In this document: positions 28,613 to 32,327 of the stretch, one piece after another
Position numbering within the stretch: position 1 is the stretch's first letter
Layout: every line of letters starts with the position of its first letter
Source of the DNA: Methylococcales bacterium
Lineage (GTDB): Bacteria; Pseudomonadota; Gammaproteobacteria; Methylococcales; Methylomonadaceae
DNA length: 32,327 nucleotides
NCBI GenBank assembly: GCA_003584895.1
Contig: QVQF01000072.1
Span: 1-32,327 of the forward strand
Reading direction: 5' to 3'
Notes under the pieces: model-generated
The model's input: the letters and a program-made list of their open reading frames with translations, nothing else
What the model was told of the DNA's origin: nothing
Databases searched by the model: none
Position numbers and translations under genes: made by a program

Positions 28613-29668
28613 TCATGGGGTCGTTGTTTTGGGATTCAAGGCTGCGCCTAATAATTTTGCGGTCACATCGACAAAGGGAATGATCTTTTCATAAGCCATT
28701 CTAGTGGGGCCAATGACGCCGAGCACGCCGACGATTTCGTTATTAACAGAATAGGAGGAGGTCACTAGACTGCATTGTTCAAAGACTTGATAGCCAGATT
28801 CTTCACCAATAAAAATCTGTACGCCATCGGCTTTCATAGATTGGTCTAATAAATGAATAATGTCTTGCTTCTGACTAAAAGCATCAAAGATTTGCTTTAA
28901 ATGATTTCTGCCTGATAGCTCAGAAAAGCCCATCAAGTTAGTTTCACCTGTTAGTACATAATCATCTTTGTTATCATTGCTTTCAAAAGCAAGTTGCGCC
29001 ATTTTTATAGCATCAAGCATGGCTTGATTCATGCGTTCTTGATCTACTTGTAGTTCTTTTAAAACTGCACTACGAACCGCATCCAAGCTTTGACCACAAT
29101 AAATTGAATTAAGGTAGGCACCCGCTTGTTGTAATTCGGAGGCGCTAAAATTTTTTTCAGAAGAAATAACTTTGTTATGAACTTCCTGTTCATTGGTCAC
29201 AAAAATAACCAGTACACGCTGATGAGATAAGGGTAAAAATTCAATATGGCGTAAGCAGGTTAATTCTCTTCGGGGCAGGGTAACAATTCCCGCCATCTGG
29301 GTTATTTCAGCCAGTAATCTTGAGGCAACACCAATCATTTGATTGTCATCATCCTTGGCGGATAAGTTTTGATGCAATCGTGATAGCTCTTGATTATCTA
29401 AAGGCTTAACGGTTAGCAAACTGTCGACAAACAAACGATAGCCACTGGAAGTCGGTATACGTCCGGCAGAAGTATGGGGTGAATGCACTAATCCTAAGTC
29501 TTCAAGATCAGCCATCACATTACGAATAGTGGCAGGGCTTAAATTTAAGGCAGAGTCTTTTGATAGCAGTCTAGAGCCAACAGGTTGGCCATCACTAATA
29601 TAGCGTTCGACCAGTGTTTTTAATAACTGTAACGACCGTTCATTTAAATCCAAAGTATTATTAGCCAC
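28613..29668 (-). CDS. hrcA: Heat-inducible repressor HrcA
   Basis: HrcA represses class I heat-shock genes by binding the CIRCE element, and its activity depends on GroEL. The frame is open to 29737, but the family start is VANNTLDLNERSLQLLKTLV, so I place it at the GTG at 29668, with GAGG five bases upstream. This gives 351 residues. The longer start would place the CIRCE and -10 inside the gene. The winged-helix half contains DGQPVGSRLLSKDSALNLSPATIRNVMADLEDLG and HTSAGRIPTSSGYRLFVD, as in the family; the C-terminal half is the dimerisation domain. Confidence 0.94.
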   Translation of the reverse strand: MANNTLDLNERSLQLLKTLVERYISDGQPVGSRLLSKDSALNLSPATIRNVMADLEDLGLVHSPHTSAGRIPTSSGYRLFVDSLLTVKPLDNQELSRLHQNLSAKDDDNQMIGVASRLLAEITQMAGIVTLPRRELTCLRHIEFLPLSHQRVLVIFVTNEQEVHNKVISSEKNFSASELQQAGAYLNSIYCGQSLDAVRSAVLKELQVDQERMNQAMLDAIKMAQLAFESNDNKDDYVLTGETNLMGFSELSGRNHLKQIFDAFSQKQDIIHLLDQSMKADGVQIFIGEESGYQVFEQCSLVTSSYSVNNEIVGVLGVIGPTRMAYEKIIPFVDVTAKLLGAALNPKTTTP

Positions 29669-29688
29669 GCATGCCTCTAAAAACAAAA

Positions 29689-29715
29689 TTAGCACTCTAC
29701 TTAATGGAGTGCTAG
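29689..29715 (-). promoter_or_regulatory. CIRCE operator
   Basis: TTAGCACTC, nine bases, then GAGTGCTAG. This matches the consensus CIRCE inverted repeat (TTAGCACTC-N9-GAGTGCTAA) at all but the final base. It lies between the promoter and the hrcA start codon, where bound HrcA would block transcription of hrcA-grpE-dnaK-dnaJ-dapB and so close an autoregulatory loop. Confidence 0.95.
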
Positions 29716-29723
29716 CAAGGCAA

Positions 29724-29751
29724 AGTATCAGACTCACTAGTATTTTGTCAA
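29724..29751 (-). promoter_or_regulatory. Promoter of the hrcA operon
   Basis: On the minus strand a perfect -35 box TTGACA (29746-29751) is followed after 16 bases by GATACT (29724-29729, four of six matches to TATAAT). The expected transcript start is just upstream of the CIRCE. The sequence looks sigma70-like rather than sigma32-like, which fits HrcA repression as the main control. Confidence 0.75.
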
Positions 29752-29802
29752 TATTCGTAATGTTTTTGGCTTTATTTTGGTGTGGTCGTCACTAATGGGA
29801 AC

Positions 29803-29917
29803 GCCAAGCCCCAGCTTGGCTAACTCGCCGAGAGTAGGGGCAGGACGCTTGTGTGCTTGGAGTAAAACAGCTTCAGCTGTTTTAAAACGCTGAGCTGACG
29901 CTCAGCACTCCACACAA
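29803..29917. repeat. Hairpin and three-way-junction inverted repeat element
   Basis: A small hairpin GCCAAG/CTTGGC (29803-29820) is followed by a nested structure. The outer arms TTGTGT plus GGAGT (29849-29863) pair with ACTCC plus ACACAA (29907-29917), with a four-base bulge. They enclose two perfect inner hairpins, AAAACAGCT/AGCTGTTTT (29864-29883) and GCTGAGC/GCTCAGC (29889-29906). This looks like a small non-autonomous mobile element. It lies upstream of the hrcA promoter and downstream of the 30005-30619 gene. Confidence 0.6.
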
Positions 29918-29968
29918 ACTATTTTCGCTTAACTGTGGGCAGTGATCAGTAAGCTGGATAAGCCAAGC

Positions 29969-29996
29969 GTAGGGACAGGTCGCGACCTGTCCCTAC
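29969..29996. repeat. 28-base perfect palindrome
   Basis: The 14-base arm GTAGGGACAGGTCG is followed without a gap by its exact reverse complement. It begins eight bases after the stop of the fibronectin-like gene in that gene's reading direction. Similar GTAGGG-type palindromes occur as dispersed repeats in many bacterial genomes. Here it may double as that gene's transcript end. Confidence 0.7.
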
Positions 29997-30004
29997 ATGG
30001 CTGA

Positions 30005-30619
30005 CTACTGCACTACTTTCATGACTGGCGCACAAAAGTCTTGTATGCCATCGGGTGTGACAGCTGCCACGCGAAAATAATAGATATTGGCGATAAGTAG
30101 ATTATTGATTTCAAAGCTTGTTTGGGTCGTTATACCTATTTGAATCCAATCACTGTCATTGTCTGGGAGCTTGCCTTTATACATTTGCCAAACATAAGTC
30201 ACGCCTCTATCGACCCTTAGTGTATCTAAGAGTACTGAGCCAGAATGGGAACCATCTTTAGCGACTAAGATTTCTTTGTTTCTGGGTGCCGGTTGTTTTG
30301 AAAAGTGAAAGCCACTACTTAAAATACTAGTTTCATCACCTAGGGCAATGCGCTCTACATAAGCGGCTAAAATACGAAACACTGCATCAGCTGATGCTAC
30401 CGCATCATTCAGGGCAGATATGGCGAGGTGGCCACCATCTGTGGCTGCCATAATAGCCTTATCTAAGGCATCGACGGCTTTTTGAGCATCAATTAGGCTC
30501 GCATCGGGCACTGGGAACAGTGGGTTATTGCTCATGTGATCAATAACAGAATGATAGTGGCTAGCCTTATTGACTGGCGCAAACCTCATAAAATCTAGGG
30601 TAACTTTCGGTTTTTTCAT
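30005..30619 (-). CDS. Fibronectin type III-like protein of unknown function
   Basis: A 204-residue protein with no signal peptide or membrane segment. The N-terminal half is helical and alanine-rich (LIDAQKAVDALDKAIMAATD, then LAAYVERIALGDETSILSSG). The C-terminal 90 residues look like a fibronectin type III fold, with WQMYKGKLPDNDSDWIQIG, TTQTSFEINNLLIANIYYFR and AAVTPDGIQDF. I recall a family of small proteins with this helical plus FN3 plan, known mainly from Bacteroidetes, but cannot confirm it. AGAGG sits eight bases before the ATG. It stands alone between repeat elements, which fits an accessory gene. Function is unknown. Confidence 0.75.
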   Translation of the reverse strand: MKKPKVTLDFMRFAPVNKASHYHSVIDHMSNNPLFPVPDASLIDAQKAVDALDKAIMAATDGGHLAISALNDAVASADAVFRILAAYVERIALGDETSILSSGFHFSKQPAPRNKEILVAKDGSHSGSVLLDTLRVDRGVTYVWQMYKGKLPDNDSDWIQIGITTQTSFEINNLLIANIYYFRVAAVTPDGIQDFCAPVMKVVQ

Positions 30620-30780
30620 TATAGAGCCTCTAAGTGGCAGGATAAATAAAAAGACTTAGCAAGGTTGCGCGGTCTTTTCTTCGGATACAAGCGACAAACG
30701 TCATCCATGATCTGCTAATAGCGGGCAGCGGTAAAAGTTGATTAGTAGTTTATTCCTGTTGGAATCGGTATCAGTCGGTT
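30620..30780. other. Spacer before the repeat array
   Basis: No gene is supported. A short dyad ATTCC-TGTT-GGAAT (30752-30765) may be an out-of-phase, decayed relative of the array that follows. A reading frame opening at 30738 runs into the array and is not considered coding. Confidence 0.4.
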
Positions 30781-31140
30781 ACATAAGCTTCCACTGGGTA
30801 TCTTGTGTTTTCACGCGAAAACGTGCGCTTACGCTGGGTTTCATGTGTTTTCAAGTGAGAACATGTGTTTCCACTGGGAATCATGTGTTTTCAAGTGAGA
30901 ACATGTGTTTCCACTGGGAATCATGTGTTTTCAAGTGAGAACATGTGTTTCCACTGGGCTTCATGTGTTTTCAAGTGAGAACATGTGTTTCCACTGGGCT
31001 TCATGTGTTTTCAAGTGAGAGCATCTGATTCCACTGGACTTCATGTGTTTTCAAGTGAGAACATGTGTTTCCATTGGGCATCTTATGTTTTCAATTGAAT
31101 ACGTGTGTTTACACTGAATATCTTATGTTTTTGCTGCACA
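30781..31140 (+). repeat. Array of 18 alternating 20-bp dyad repeats
   Basis: Two 20-base units alternate in exact phase without any insertion or deletion. Unit A is TCATGTGTTTTCAAGTGAGA and unit B is ACATGTGTTTCCACTGGGAA. The central units (30841-31020) are almost identical and the outer ones decayed, as expected for expansion by slippage or unequal exchange. Each unit holds a small dyad: TTTTCA with TGAGAA in A, and TTTCCA with TGGGAA in B. The fourth arm base changes in a compensated way (U-A to C-G). Period 40 is not a multiple of three, and stops occur in all frames, so it is not coding. No family is known to me. Confidence 0.9.
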
Positions 31141-31185
31141 TTCTACGTGTCGAATCAGCGTCTTGTTTAATGACAGTAATTGCGA

Positions 31186-31258
31186 CGAAACATAATGTAT
31201 ATAGTCAGTATGTTTCGGTAAAGTAGATAAAAAGGTTTTAAGTCGTACCTTTTATCTA
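31186..31258. repeat. Two adjacent inverted repeats
   Basis: CGAAACATA (31186-31194) pairs with TATGTTTCG (31209-31217) around a 14-base loop. Then TAGATAAAAAGGT (31224-31236) pairs with ACCTTTTATCTA (31247-31258) with one bulged A. They lie just downstream of the 20-bp array. No T-run follows. They may be part of a structured transcript or another palindromic element. Confidence 0.5.
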
Positions 31259-31407
31259 GGTTGTAAATTATGCTGACCAAGAGTATTGCATAGGCAAAAA
31301 CTGAAAGCAACTAATTTATTCGCTAGAGTTTGAATTATTTTCAAGATGGGTAAAATACTTCAGTAATATAGGGTATGTCTATGAAGGTGCTGCATCAAAC
31401 AAGACCC

Positions 31408-31470
31408 GTAGGCTGGATAAGCAACGCGCATCCGGCATCAATGTTGGGGTTCGTTATTTATCCAGCCTAC
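31408..31470. repeat. Palindromic element with 13-base arms
   Basis: GTAGGCTGGATAA at 31408-31420 is exactly repeated inverted at 31458-31470, enclosing 37 bases with a GCGCATCCGGC-type core. Its GCTGGATAAGC word (31412-31422) recurs at 29953-29963, next to the 28-base palindrome. This looks like a REP- or MITE-like element family. It abuts the transposase remnant at 31471. Confidence 0.65.
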
Positions 31471-31674
31471 TTAACTATACTTAGGAAAGGTATTTATATT
31501 CATTAAAGGTGGCCAAGCCTTTTCGCCGCGAGGACTGGAATGAAGCCCAATCAGTAAACTTTCAATTCTTGACCAGTCAATAAGCTCATGAACATCGTCT
31601 AGCTCTTTTAAAGCCTCAGGCTCAATCAGCATCGCATCAATCCATGTTGTTTGTTGTAAGTTTTTCCACGCCAT
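31471..31674 (-). pseudogene. IS5-family transposase, N-terminal remnant
   Basis: The first ~57 codons read like the N-terminus of an IS5-type transposase (MAWKNLQQTTWIDAMLIEPE, then ELDDVHELIDWSRIESLL and HSSPRGEKAWPPLM). After WPPLM the match ends and ten unrelated residues precede a stop, so the DDE catalytic domain is missing. A GAAGGTGCTG word at 31383 resembles IS5-type ends, but the partner end is not seen. The remnant starts 37 bases from the first CRISPR repeat and is not functional. Confidence 0.75.
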
Positions 31675-31711
31675 TGAAATTACAATGGATGATTATCTTG
31701 AGTTTAATAAA

Positions 31712-32099
31712 GTTCACTGCCGTACAGGCAGCTTAGAAAAGCAAGGCATAACAACTAACCCAGGCTTTGAGGTTCACTGCCGTACAGGCAGCTTAGAAAT
31801 TTACGTTCAAATGGCTGGGCGTGGTATGCGTGTTCACTGCCGTACAGGCAGCTTAGAAAAACTGGGCGATTCAACCGACTCCGGTACCTGAGTTCACTGC
31901 CGTACAGGCAGCTTAGAAAATAAGATTTGAGGCTATCATTTCGCCCGTTTCGTTCACTGCCGTACAGGCAGCTTAGAAATATTGAAAATATAACCAATGG
32001 ATTTAAGGTTCGTTCACTGCCGTACAGGCAGCTTAGAAAGCATCAAAGTCACGCCTAAACGCTAGATCCTGGTTCACTGCCGCACAGGCAGCTTAGAAA
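31712..32099 (+). CRISPR. Type I-F CRISPR array, 7 repeats and 6 spacers
   Basis: Seven 28-base repeats start at 31712, 31772, 31832, 31892, 31952, 32012 and 32072, with six spacers of exactly 32 bases. The repeat begins GTTCACTGCC, contains the CTGCC/GGCAG hairpin and ends CTTAGAAA, the I-F crRNA 5' handle. It therefore reads left to right in the crRNA sense. Six repeats are identical; the last has C for T in the loop, which marks the leader-distal end on the right. The leader should lie left of 31712, where an IS5 remnant is found. No cas genes are in the window. Confidence 0.98.
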
Positions 32100-32268
32100 T
32101 CATTAAAAGCGGCTCAGGAATTGAACCGATGGTGTCTTAAATGAGATAGTGAATGATTAATTGCGACAGCAATATAAACCCTAGTATTTACATTAGCTTG
32201 ATTAGCCACTATTTAATATTAGTGCTAAAGTGCCAATTTACCTAGTGATACAGATGTAGAGGTTTTTA

Positions 32269-32327
32269 ATGCAAAGATATGAAACTGATATCATTTCATG
32301 GGCGAATGAACAGGCGGCATTTATCCG
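32269..32327 (+). CDS. DUF29-like protein, 5' end only
   Basis: The window ends after 19 codons (MQRYETDIISWANEQAAFI). The pattern YETD-x3-SWANEQA resembles the N-terminus of DUF29 proteins, a family of unknown function common in phototrophs and accessory regions. TAGAGG lies six bases before the ATG. The call rests on very little sequence. Confidence 0.5.
   Translation, partial: MQRYETDIISWANEQAAFI

Follow-up and report, generated by a model that had tools for sequence, protein, structure and literature searches.

The locus and its partner gene P204

The window, i.e., the whole stretch of 32,327 nucleotides analysed here, represents contig C23 of a draft source genome of 2.6 Mb in 235 contigs. 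As read off the open reading frames, its other genes encode ribosomal proteins, Suf proteins and the dnaJ-dnaK-grpE-hrcA cluster. Close to one end, a phased repeat array precedes a gene termed P204:

30005-30619, minus strand: P204 gene, 204 amino acids, with a helical N-terminal domain (approx. residues 1-110) and an Fn3 domain (116-204); dN/dS approx. 0.24 relative to two orthologues
30620-30780, minus strand: leader/promoter interval from the array to the P204 start, in the window copy without a TATA(G/C/A)T box
30649-30678, minus strand: inverted repeat with 7-bp arms (AAAAGAC/GTCTTTT) followed by a T-run, approx. 30 nt before the start codon
30781-31140, no strand assigned: phased array of approx. 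18 units of 20 bp in A/B alternation (period 40 bp), with a Watson-Crick dyad per unit and decay of the units at the edges
31141-31348, no strand assigned: distal flank of the array, alignable to genome G024; its end is the downstream limit of the segment absent from the hrcA locus of genome G033

TRF detected the array at 30789-31116 with a period of 40, 8.2 copies, 88% matches, 0% indels and a score of 453, which bears out the 20-base A/B units without indels described in an earlier note on this DNA. The A and B units quoted there, as well as the edge dyads at 30807-30822, 31021-31040 and 31081-31100, were re-read as claimed. The tail (31080-31130) is decayed, showing a period of 20 and 9% indels. 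The array is located on the 5' side of P204, approx. 160 bp from its start codon; the earlier note had overlooked this partner gene.

A promoter-like site scoring 9/12 was found on the minus strand at 31169-31140, and the six such sites around the array correspond to chance (6.0 expected). Terminator-like sites in the same surroundings numbered six versus 2.2 in shuffled sequences, one of them being located inside the array on the plus strand. The inverted repeat with T-run upstream of P204 is also present in the orthologues L047 and L050; over the clade, terminator-like sites before P204 amounted to 15/92 versus 11 expected by shuffling, an enrichment that is not clear. Searching window positions 29000-32327 against Rfam up to an E-value of 1 returned CRISPR repeats only and no match over the array, and at gathering scores the 19 module loci yielded one tRNA and one retron msr, neither over an array. 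The msr match, just at the gathering score, lies at 3558-3632 of L055, a P204-carrying locus of genome G018. Furthermore, the window contains, at 31712-32099 and approx. 570 bp past the array, seven CRISPR repeats of a type I-F-like kind (CRISPR-DR4 in Rfam) that are separated by 32-bp spacers. An interspersed palindromic element at 31401-31479 has numerous matches scattered through the genus, located on either strand.

The AlphaFold2 model of P204 (mean pLDDT 89.5, pTM 0.55) comprises an N-terminal helical bundle and a C-terminal domain identified as Fn3 by comparison with 1qg3_B (Z 13.6, rmsd 1.6, 85 residues aligned). Modelled separately, the N-terminal domain is predicted as a helical bundle as well (pLDDT 92.2). 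Foldseek provided no confident relative of this domain (best E 0.83), although one may have been missed, and the best VIA match (talin R7R8, Z 9.3, rmsd 3.6, 96 aligned) is in the usual range for helical bundles. A relation to epimerases was dismissed, the best profile match to solved structures (E 0.0055) being taken as chance. Among 52 P204 members, Pfam assigned fn3 to 13, a DSCAM Fn3 model to two and two single weak others, and NCBIfam gave just two single weak matches. No transposase models were among the Pfam matches, and no toxin matches were obtained in Pfam or PADLOC (PADLOC 0/52 members). PHROGs matches, mostly tail proteins, concerned at most 6 of the 52 members, and the best one of the window protein P0001 spans residues 98-193, mainly the Fn3 part. 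The P204 gene is under constraint, as dN/dS values were 0.24-0.25 in three pairs of the window orthologue group and 0.07-0.38 in four other pairs (0.07-0.38 over all seven).

Distribution of P204 and of its arrays

A Methylobacter clade carries P204 in multiple copies, and further members are present in MAGs of Bacteroidota and Verrucomicrobiota. Nine matches were counted in the source genome (eight full-length copies and one fragment on C67) and at least 20 in genome G016. Within the family, 11 of 151 sampled genomes encode P204, all belonging to one of 29 genera, and among 398 sampled genomes of the phylum the source genome alone was positive. A protein search of named genomes retrieved 54 P204 loci, including seven from Bacteroidota and one from Verrucomicrobiota; named relatives are Methylobacter psychrophilus and many MAGs labelled Methylococcaceae, Methylococcales or Crenothrix, from which the source is presumed to be a methanotroph of the Methylobacter clade. 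Four genomes of Bacteroidota/Verrucomicrobiota searched as a whole contained 5, 7, 16 and 11 matches, partial ones included, and in two later draws of 198 and 194 genomes many matches were Fn3 parts of larger proteins. The locus L174, labelled Paludibacter sp. (MAG), encodes a P204 60% identical to that of M. psychrophilus downstream of an array with a 126-bp period; this record may represent a transfer or a mis-binned contig. A phage or plasmid origin of P204 was rejected: tblastn with P0001 (E 1e-3) matched none of 50,697 phage and 72,556 plasmid records, and no relatives were found in a scan of viral contigs.

In total, 85 of 115 P204 upstream regions carry a phased array of approx. 20-22 bp, as called by a comb autocorrelation exceeding the 98% level that 470 control blocks taken from these loci define. 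Array-positive regions comprise 56/79 in the Methylobacter clade and 29/36 in Bacteroidota/Verrucomicrobiota, the latter set including partial matches scored as misses (e.g., L252 with Fn3 only and the interrupted L280). The remaining 30/115 are without periodicity. When three loci picked through the array are dropped, 82/112 are positive. The 115 regions are 118 minus L221, L222 and L224 (identical in sequence to L231, L228 and L231, respectively); L227, L229 and L230 were also excluded as copies of L219, L225 and L226. The comb test needs at least 620 bp upstream, and the source-genome loci L089 and L094 were counted by TRF instead. Late-added members, all within the 115, passed in five of seven cases from newly drawn genomes and in both further copies from G573. 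In the source genome, all eight full-length copies are array-positive, and the fragment on C67 is negative.

The TRF survey covered 80 fetched P204 loci, the window and three loci found through the array; tblastn placed the gene in 82 of them, L161 and L164 being those with no gene. A TRF repeat (score ≥50) was present within 800 bp upstream in 38/82 loci, with periods of 20-22, 40-42, 61-63, 81-84, 121-126 or approx. 168. Among TRF arrays scoring at least 100 in 93 loci (680 kb), 30 are located upstream within 900 bp, five downstream and 13 elsewhere, seven of these 13 in loci picked for array similarity. All 30 upstream arrays (92 gene matches) have a period that is a multiple of 20-21.15, a test that 35% of integer periods would pass; four of the 30 loci had been picked through the array. 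In the unselected loci L089-L168, six arrays of the 20-21 type were found elsewhere, four of them (L133, L134, L140 and L151) 3', not 5', of a P204 gene. L103, where a contig end leaves just a gene fragment, is counted in the sets for TRF upstream arrays, curvature, longest stem, repeat-aware folding and G-T/A-C pairs, but not in the 115 regions or the 46 groups described below.

Over 68 arrays, the unit measures 20.80 bp (sd 0.37, range 20-22), and all 32 arrays with a period of at most 70 fall at 20-22, 40-42 or 60-63. The proposal that all dyads face one side of the DNA is more in keeping with the family mode of 21 bp than with the window array, the 20.0-bp unit of which drifts. The median array is 238 bp long and ends 212 bp (median; IQR 128-271) before the start codon. 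In 42 clade regions where no TRF array reaches a score of 100, mean autocorrelation peaks at lags 21, 42, 63 and 84 (0.334, 0.333, 0.313 and 0.308 versus a median of 0.27), and 36 Bacteroidota/Verrucomicrobiota regions peak at the same lags (0.383, 0.401, 0.368 and 0.383 versus 0.275). Sequences are unrelated between the arrays of most P204 paralogues, and no shared motif was recognized by eye. A TATA(G/C/A)T box within 80 nt before the start was observed in 25/72 clade members, 15 of the 25 at 39-45 nt, with TATAGT in 16 members versus approx. one expected; a generic sigma-70 scan around the arrays was at or below chance. Since the box sits between array and gene, the array of boxed members is located upstream of the likely promoter.

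Searching 35 genomes of the genus uncovered relatives of the window array in several. G024 retains gene, array and flanks (window 29962-31358, 83% over 1440 columns), and both length and copy number vary among orthologous arrays; many arrays are diverged and not recently expanded. Two contigs of G026, both starting inside the array, resemble its two sides, one having the P204 gene and the other (C390, L049) continuing from the homologous array into a putative cas1-like ORF. Given this ORF and the CRISPR array of the window, CRISPR-Cas may lie next to the phased array in two genomes. Array relatives without a P204 match in the available DNA were found on G008 C160, G024 C181, G033 C6, G032 C33 and G029 C86, contig ends limiting some. 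At the hrcA locus of G033 (C44, L058, approx. 1936-2016), the segment corresponding to window 29779-31348 is absent and replaced by 29 unaligned bases; no terminal repeats or target duplication were visible by eye. Moreover, positions 1-473 of source contig C101 (L015) are identical over 473 bp to window 30881-31353, i.e., array and distal flank, followed by a putative HsdR-like ORF. C101 may be a second copy, a strain variant or an assembly fork; because it begins inside the array, a fork or strain mixture is as likely as a second copy. Concerning neighbouring genes, 93 ORFs (of 208 picked) match 116 Pfam families, the commonest in 3/93. No recurrent neighbour suited as a regulator was among the matches listed, and no Rep or Par family among the best 25 of the 116.

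Dyad symmetry of the arrays

The earlier note, which knew of no described family, had named a multi-hairpin RNA, a protein-binding array and iterons as options for the window array, and had pointed to a U-G wobble kept in both units that pairs in a plus-strand RNA only. Arm gaps measure 2 nt in A and 1 nt in B, so that an RNA cannot form all six pairs. Folding of the plus strand gave -141.8 kcal/mol (z -9.7) and of the minus strand -83.4 kcal/mol (z -2.0) relative to plain shuffles. Plain shuffling, however, breaks up the repeats; with repeat-aware shuffles, the plus strand reached z -1.4 (p 0.08). The longest stem of the window consensus is within chance (p 0.80). Whole-unit Watson-Crick palindromy was significant in the window (p 0.025) and in the orthologous arrays L047 (p < 0.01) and L050 (p 0.008).

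For comparison of pairs, 34 unique 40-bp units from five homologous arrays were used, out of 45 matching the consensus at 18/40 positions or more. Over the 14 proposed pairs (476 cells), 302 cells were Watson-Crick, 77 G-U and 97 unpaired, as compared to 82-157 Watson-Crick and 230-353 unpaired for the same scheme in shifted registers. The loss of dyads in homologues, named in the earlier note as a refuting outcome, was thus not observed between arrays. A-unit pairs vary in both arms (two pairs from T-A to C-G and one from A-T to G-C), these changes coming essentially from one lineage, G026; the outer two B-unit pairs are mostly broken across homologous units. The wobble is kept in the window and G024 (T-G), G008 having T-T in its consensus and G026 having T-A. 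Covariation within arrays was not found: 47/65 arrays were positive when the centre was picked by the observed score, but only 25/65 with unbiased centres (mean -0.011), and within-array compensation is not supported.

Across the family, per-unit palindromy against a null in which positions were permuted identically in all sub-units had a mean z of 1.62 over 46 non-redundant groups (t-test p 4e-10), 21 groups exceeding 1.64; including L103, the mean is 1.60 over 47 groups. An individually significant dyad (p ≤ 0.05) was detected in 18/46 groups, the other 28 being without one. Examples are AAGTTGCAACTT/AAGTTCCAACTT in L276, GATCG-AAAAA-CGATC together with GATCA-GAAAT-TGATC in L278, and CTTTGAAGAT-N10-ATCTTCAAAG in L254. 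The longest-stem test was significant (p ≤ 0.05) in 14/63 arrays. With G-U permitted on the gene strand or on the opposite one, the mean z fell to 1.18 in either case, with the sense strand better in 24/46 groups (paired p 0.98), and folding energies of 50 arrays showed no strand bias (sense better in 26/50 locally and 19/50 in full). A strand-specific RNA was also rejected from mismatch counts, G-T being observed 22 times versus 19 expected and A-C 33 times versus 22.5, much of the latter from L121. The dyads are therefore a family trait, Watson-Crick and strand-symmetric. Dyads and near-two-turn spacing thus stand as family-wide features (mean z 1.62; 20.80 bp), and the plus-strand RNA reading is disfavoured. 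As G-U lowers z and folding shows no strand preference, the dyads are read as a symmetry of double-stranded DNA.

Two further candidates were tried and set aside. An open frame exists in some arrays, as heptad repeats would require, yet mismatches between repeats of 39 arrays are even over codon positions (356/337/320, p 0.38), and periods of 20, 40, 41 and 83 break the frame. Predicted curvature, which would be raised in a phased A-tract promoter element, had a mean z of 0.30 relative to unit-shuffled arrays over 51 arrays including L103, seven exceeding 1.64; for the window array it amounts to 6 degrees per 168 bp, as calculated from wedge angles.

A proposed cis-acting module and its relation to known systems

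Based on these results, we tentatively propose that the phased DNA array acts on P204 transcription and, together with the gene, forms a module in which it is the DNA element acting in cis, a reading that we consider possible and favour without regarding it as established. A DNA-level array is preferred over a multi-hairpin RNA because the dyads are strand-symmetric and Watson-Crick without a gain from G-U, and the arrays are non-coding. The array would work as double-stranded DNA, in which phased operator-like sites in a row might allow a predicted dimeric protein to assemble cooperatively; such an assembly would set transcription from a P204 promoter between array and gene, and the P204 level would be tuned as units are gained or lost. 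As every array has its own sequence, recognition would be module-specific, or by spacing and symmetry more than by bases. Evidence against this reading comprises the 30/115 negative regions, arrays without a P204 gene, the 28/46 groups without a significant dyad and the missing within-array compensation. The four arrays 3' of P204 genes, the 20.0-bp unit of the window array, the sigma-70 scan at or below chance, and the failure to see a shared motif by eye or a recurrent regulator among the neighbour matches listed also count against it. That the proteins of the P204 family each recognise a phased palindromic array of their own, forming a self-addressed protein-DNA module in three phyla, is a decidedly doubtful extension; if true, several to twenty distinct gene/array pairs per genome would each build a separate nucleoprotein structure.

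Among the alternatives, a contingency locus, in which repeat number rather than a specific protein alters spacing or topology upstream of the P204 promoter and 21-bp steps keep helical phase, is credible but rather unlikely. It agrees with the box, where present, lying between array and gene, and with the varying length and copy number of orthologous arrays; steps of 21 bp preserve phase. However, many arrays are diverged rather than freshly expanded, the model needs no dyads, and predicted intrinsic curvature is not above that of unit-shuffled arrays (mean z 0.30; 6 degrees in the window). It must be regarded as unlikely that the array is expressed as a repeat RNA with the P204 protein as its partner, similar to type III toxin-antitoxin systems. 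The minus strand of the window does present the promoter-like site (31169-31140), the array, the hairpin with T-run (30649-30678) and the ORF; moreover, the plus strand folds strongly, terminator-like sites exceed shuffles (6 versus 2.2), and repeats are paralogue-specific, as has been reported of ToxI clusters (PMC8860590). Yet the better-folding strand is antisense to the gene, neither a strand bias (50 arrays) nor a G-U gain (46 groups) was observed, promoter-like sites (6 versus 6.0) are at chance and terminator-like sites stand at 15/92 versus 11 expected, and the 52 P204 members lack toxin matches in Pfam or PADLOC.

Improbable to a similar degree as the self-addressed module is a neutral by-product, i.e., a duplication hot spot beside P204 genes that makes 21-bp tandem repeats. 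Tandem duplication requires no function, array edges decay, paralogue arrays are mostly unrelated in sequence, and within-array compensation is absent; equal unit length beside one gene family in three phyla, palindromy above chance and the rarity of such arrays elsewhere in the same loci argue against it. That the array belongs to a mobile or recombination element carrying P204 is highly improbable. P204 genes are multicopy and dispersed, the segment 29779-31348 is absent at the G033 hrcA locus, C101 repeats array and flank identically over 473 bp, and array relatives without P204 exist. On the other hand, the G033 site shows no terminal repeats or target duplication by eye, C101 starts within the array and may equally reflect a forked assembly or mixed strains, and P0001 is without a match in the 50,697 phage and 72,556 plasmid records, the viral-contig scan being negative as well.

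The pairing of gene and array appears to be new as an association, no description of it being among the open-licence papers listed. The same two-turn spacing, with unrelated sequences but beside a single protein family across Pseudomonadota, Bacteroidota and Verrucomicrobiota, suggests that spacing and symmetry are selected and not a fixed motif, which is unusual for a bacterial cis-element. Moreover, the arrays provide a first handle on the uncharacterised Fn3 protein family P204.

Type III toxin-antitoxin loci are defined by a promoter, a repeat array, a terminator hairpin and a toxin ORF (PMC8860590). Like ToxIN in that source, the P204 module consists of one protein gene preceded by a tandem array with repeats specific to each locus cluster. 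P204 differs from type III toxins in combining a helical bundle with Fn3 and in having no endoribonuclease match of the ToxN kinds (Pfam and PADLOC, 52 members); its arrays differ in their 20-22 bp unit with DNA-type dyads, and terminator and distal promoter are not clearly enriched. Thus, the window imitates the type III layout, the protein is not of the toxin type, and the other elements are near chance over the family. With REP palindromes and their RAYT genes (PMC3733652), the arrays share short palindromic repeats (20-40 bp) beside a gene; the P204 module differs by having no tyrosine transposase match, long tandem arrays and an own sequence per array. The likeness to CRISPR is confined to the neighbouring repeat array, as P204 units are arranged head-to-tail without unique spacers and are other repeats. 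Iteron arrays of plasmid origins and centromeres of the ParR/TubR type consist of direct repeats near two helical turns upstream of a possibly autoregulated gene. P204 arrays are unlike them in that no recurrent replication or partition partner occurs among the neighbour matches listed, and in being many per chromosome and unrelated in sequence; they resemble these systems in their direct repeats near two helical turns, located 5' of a gene.
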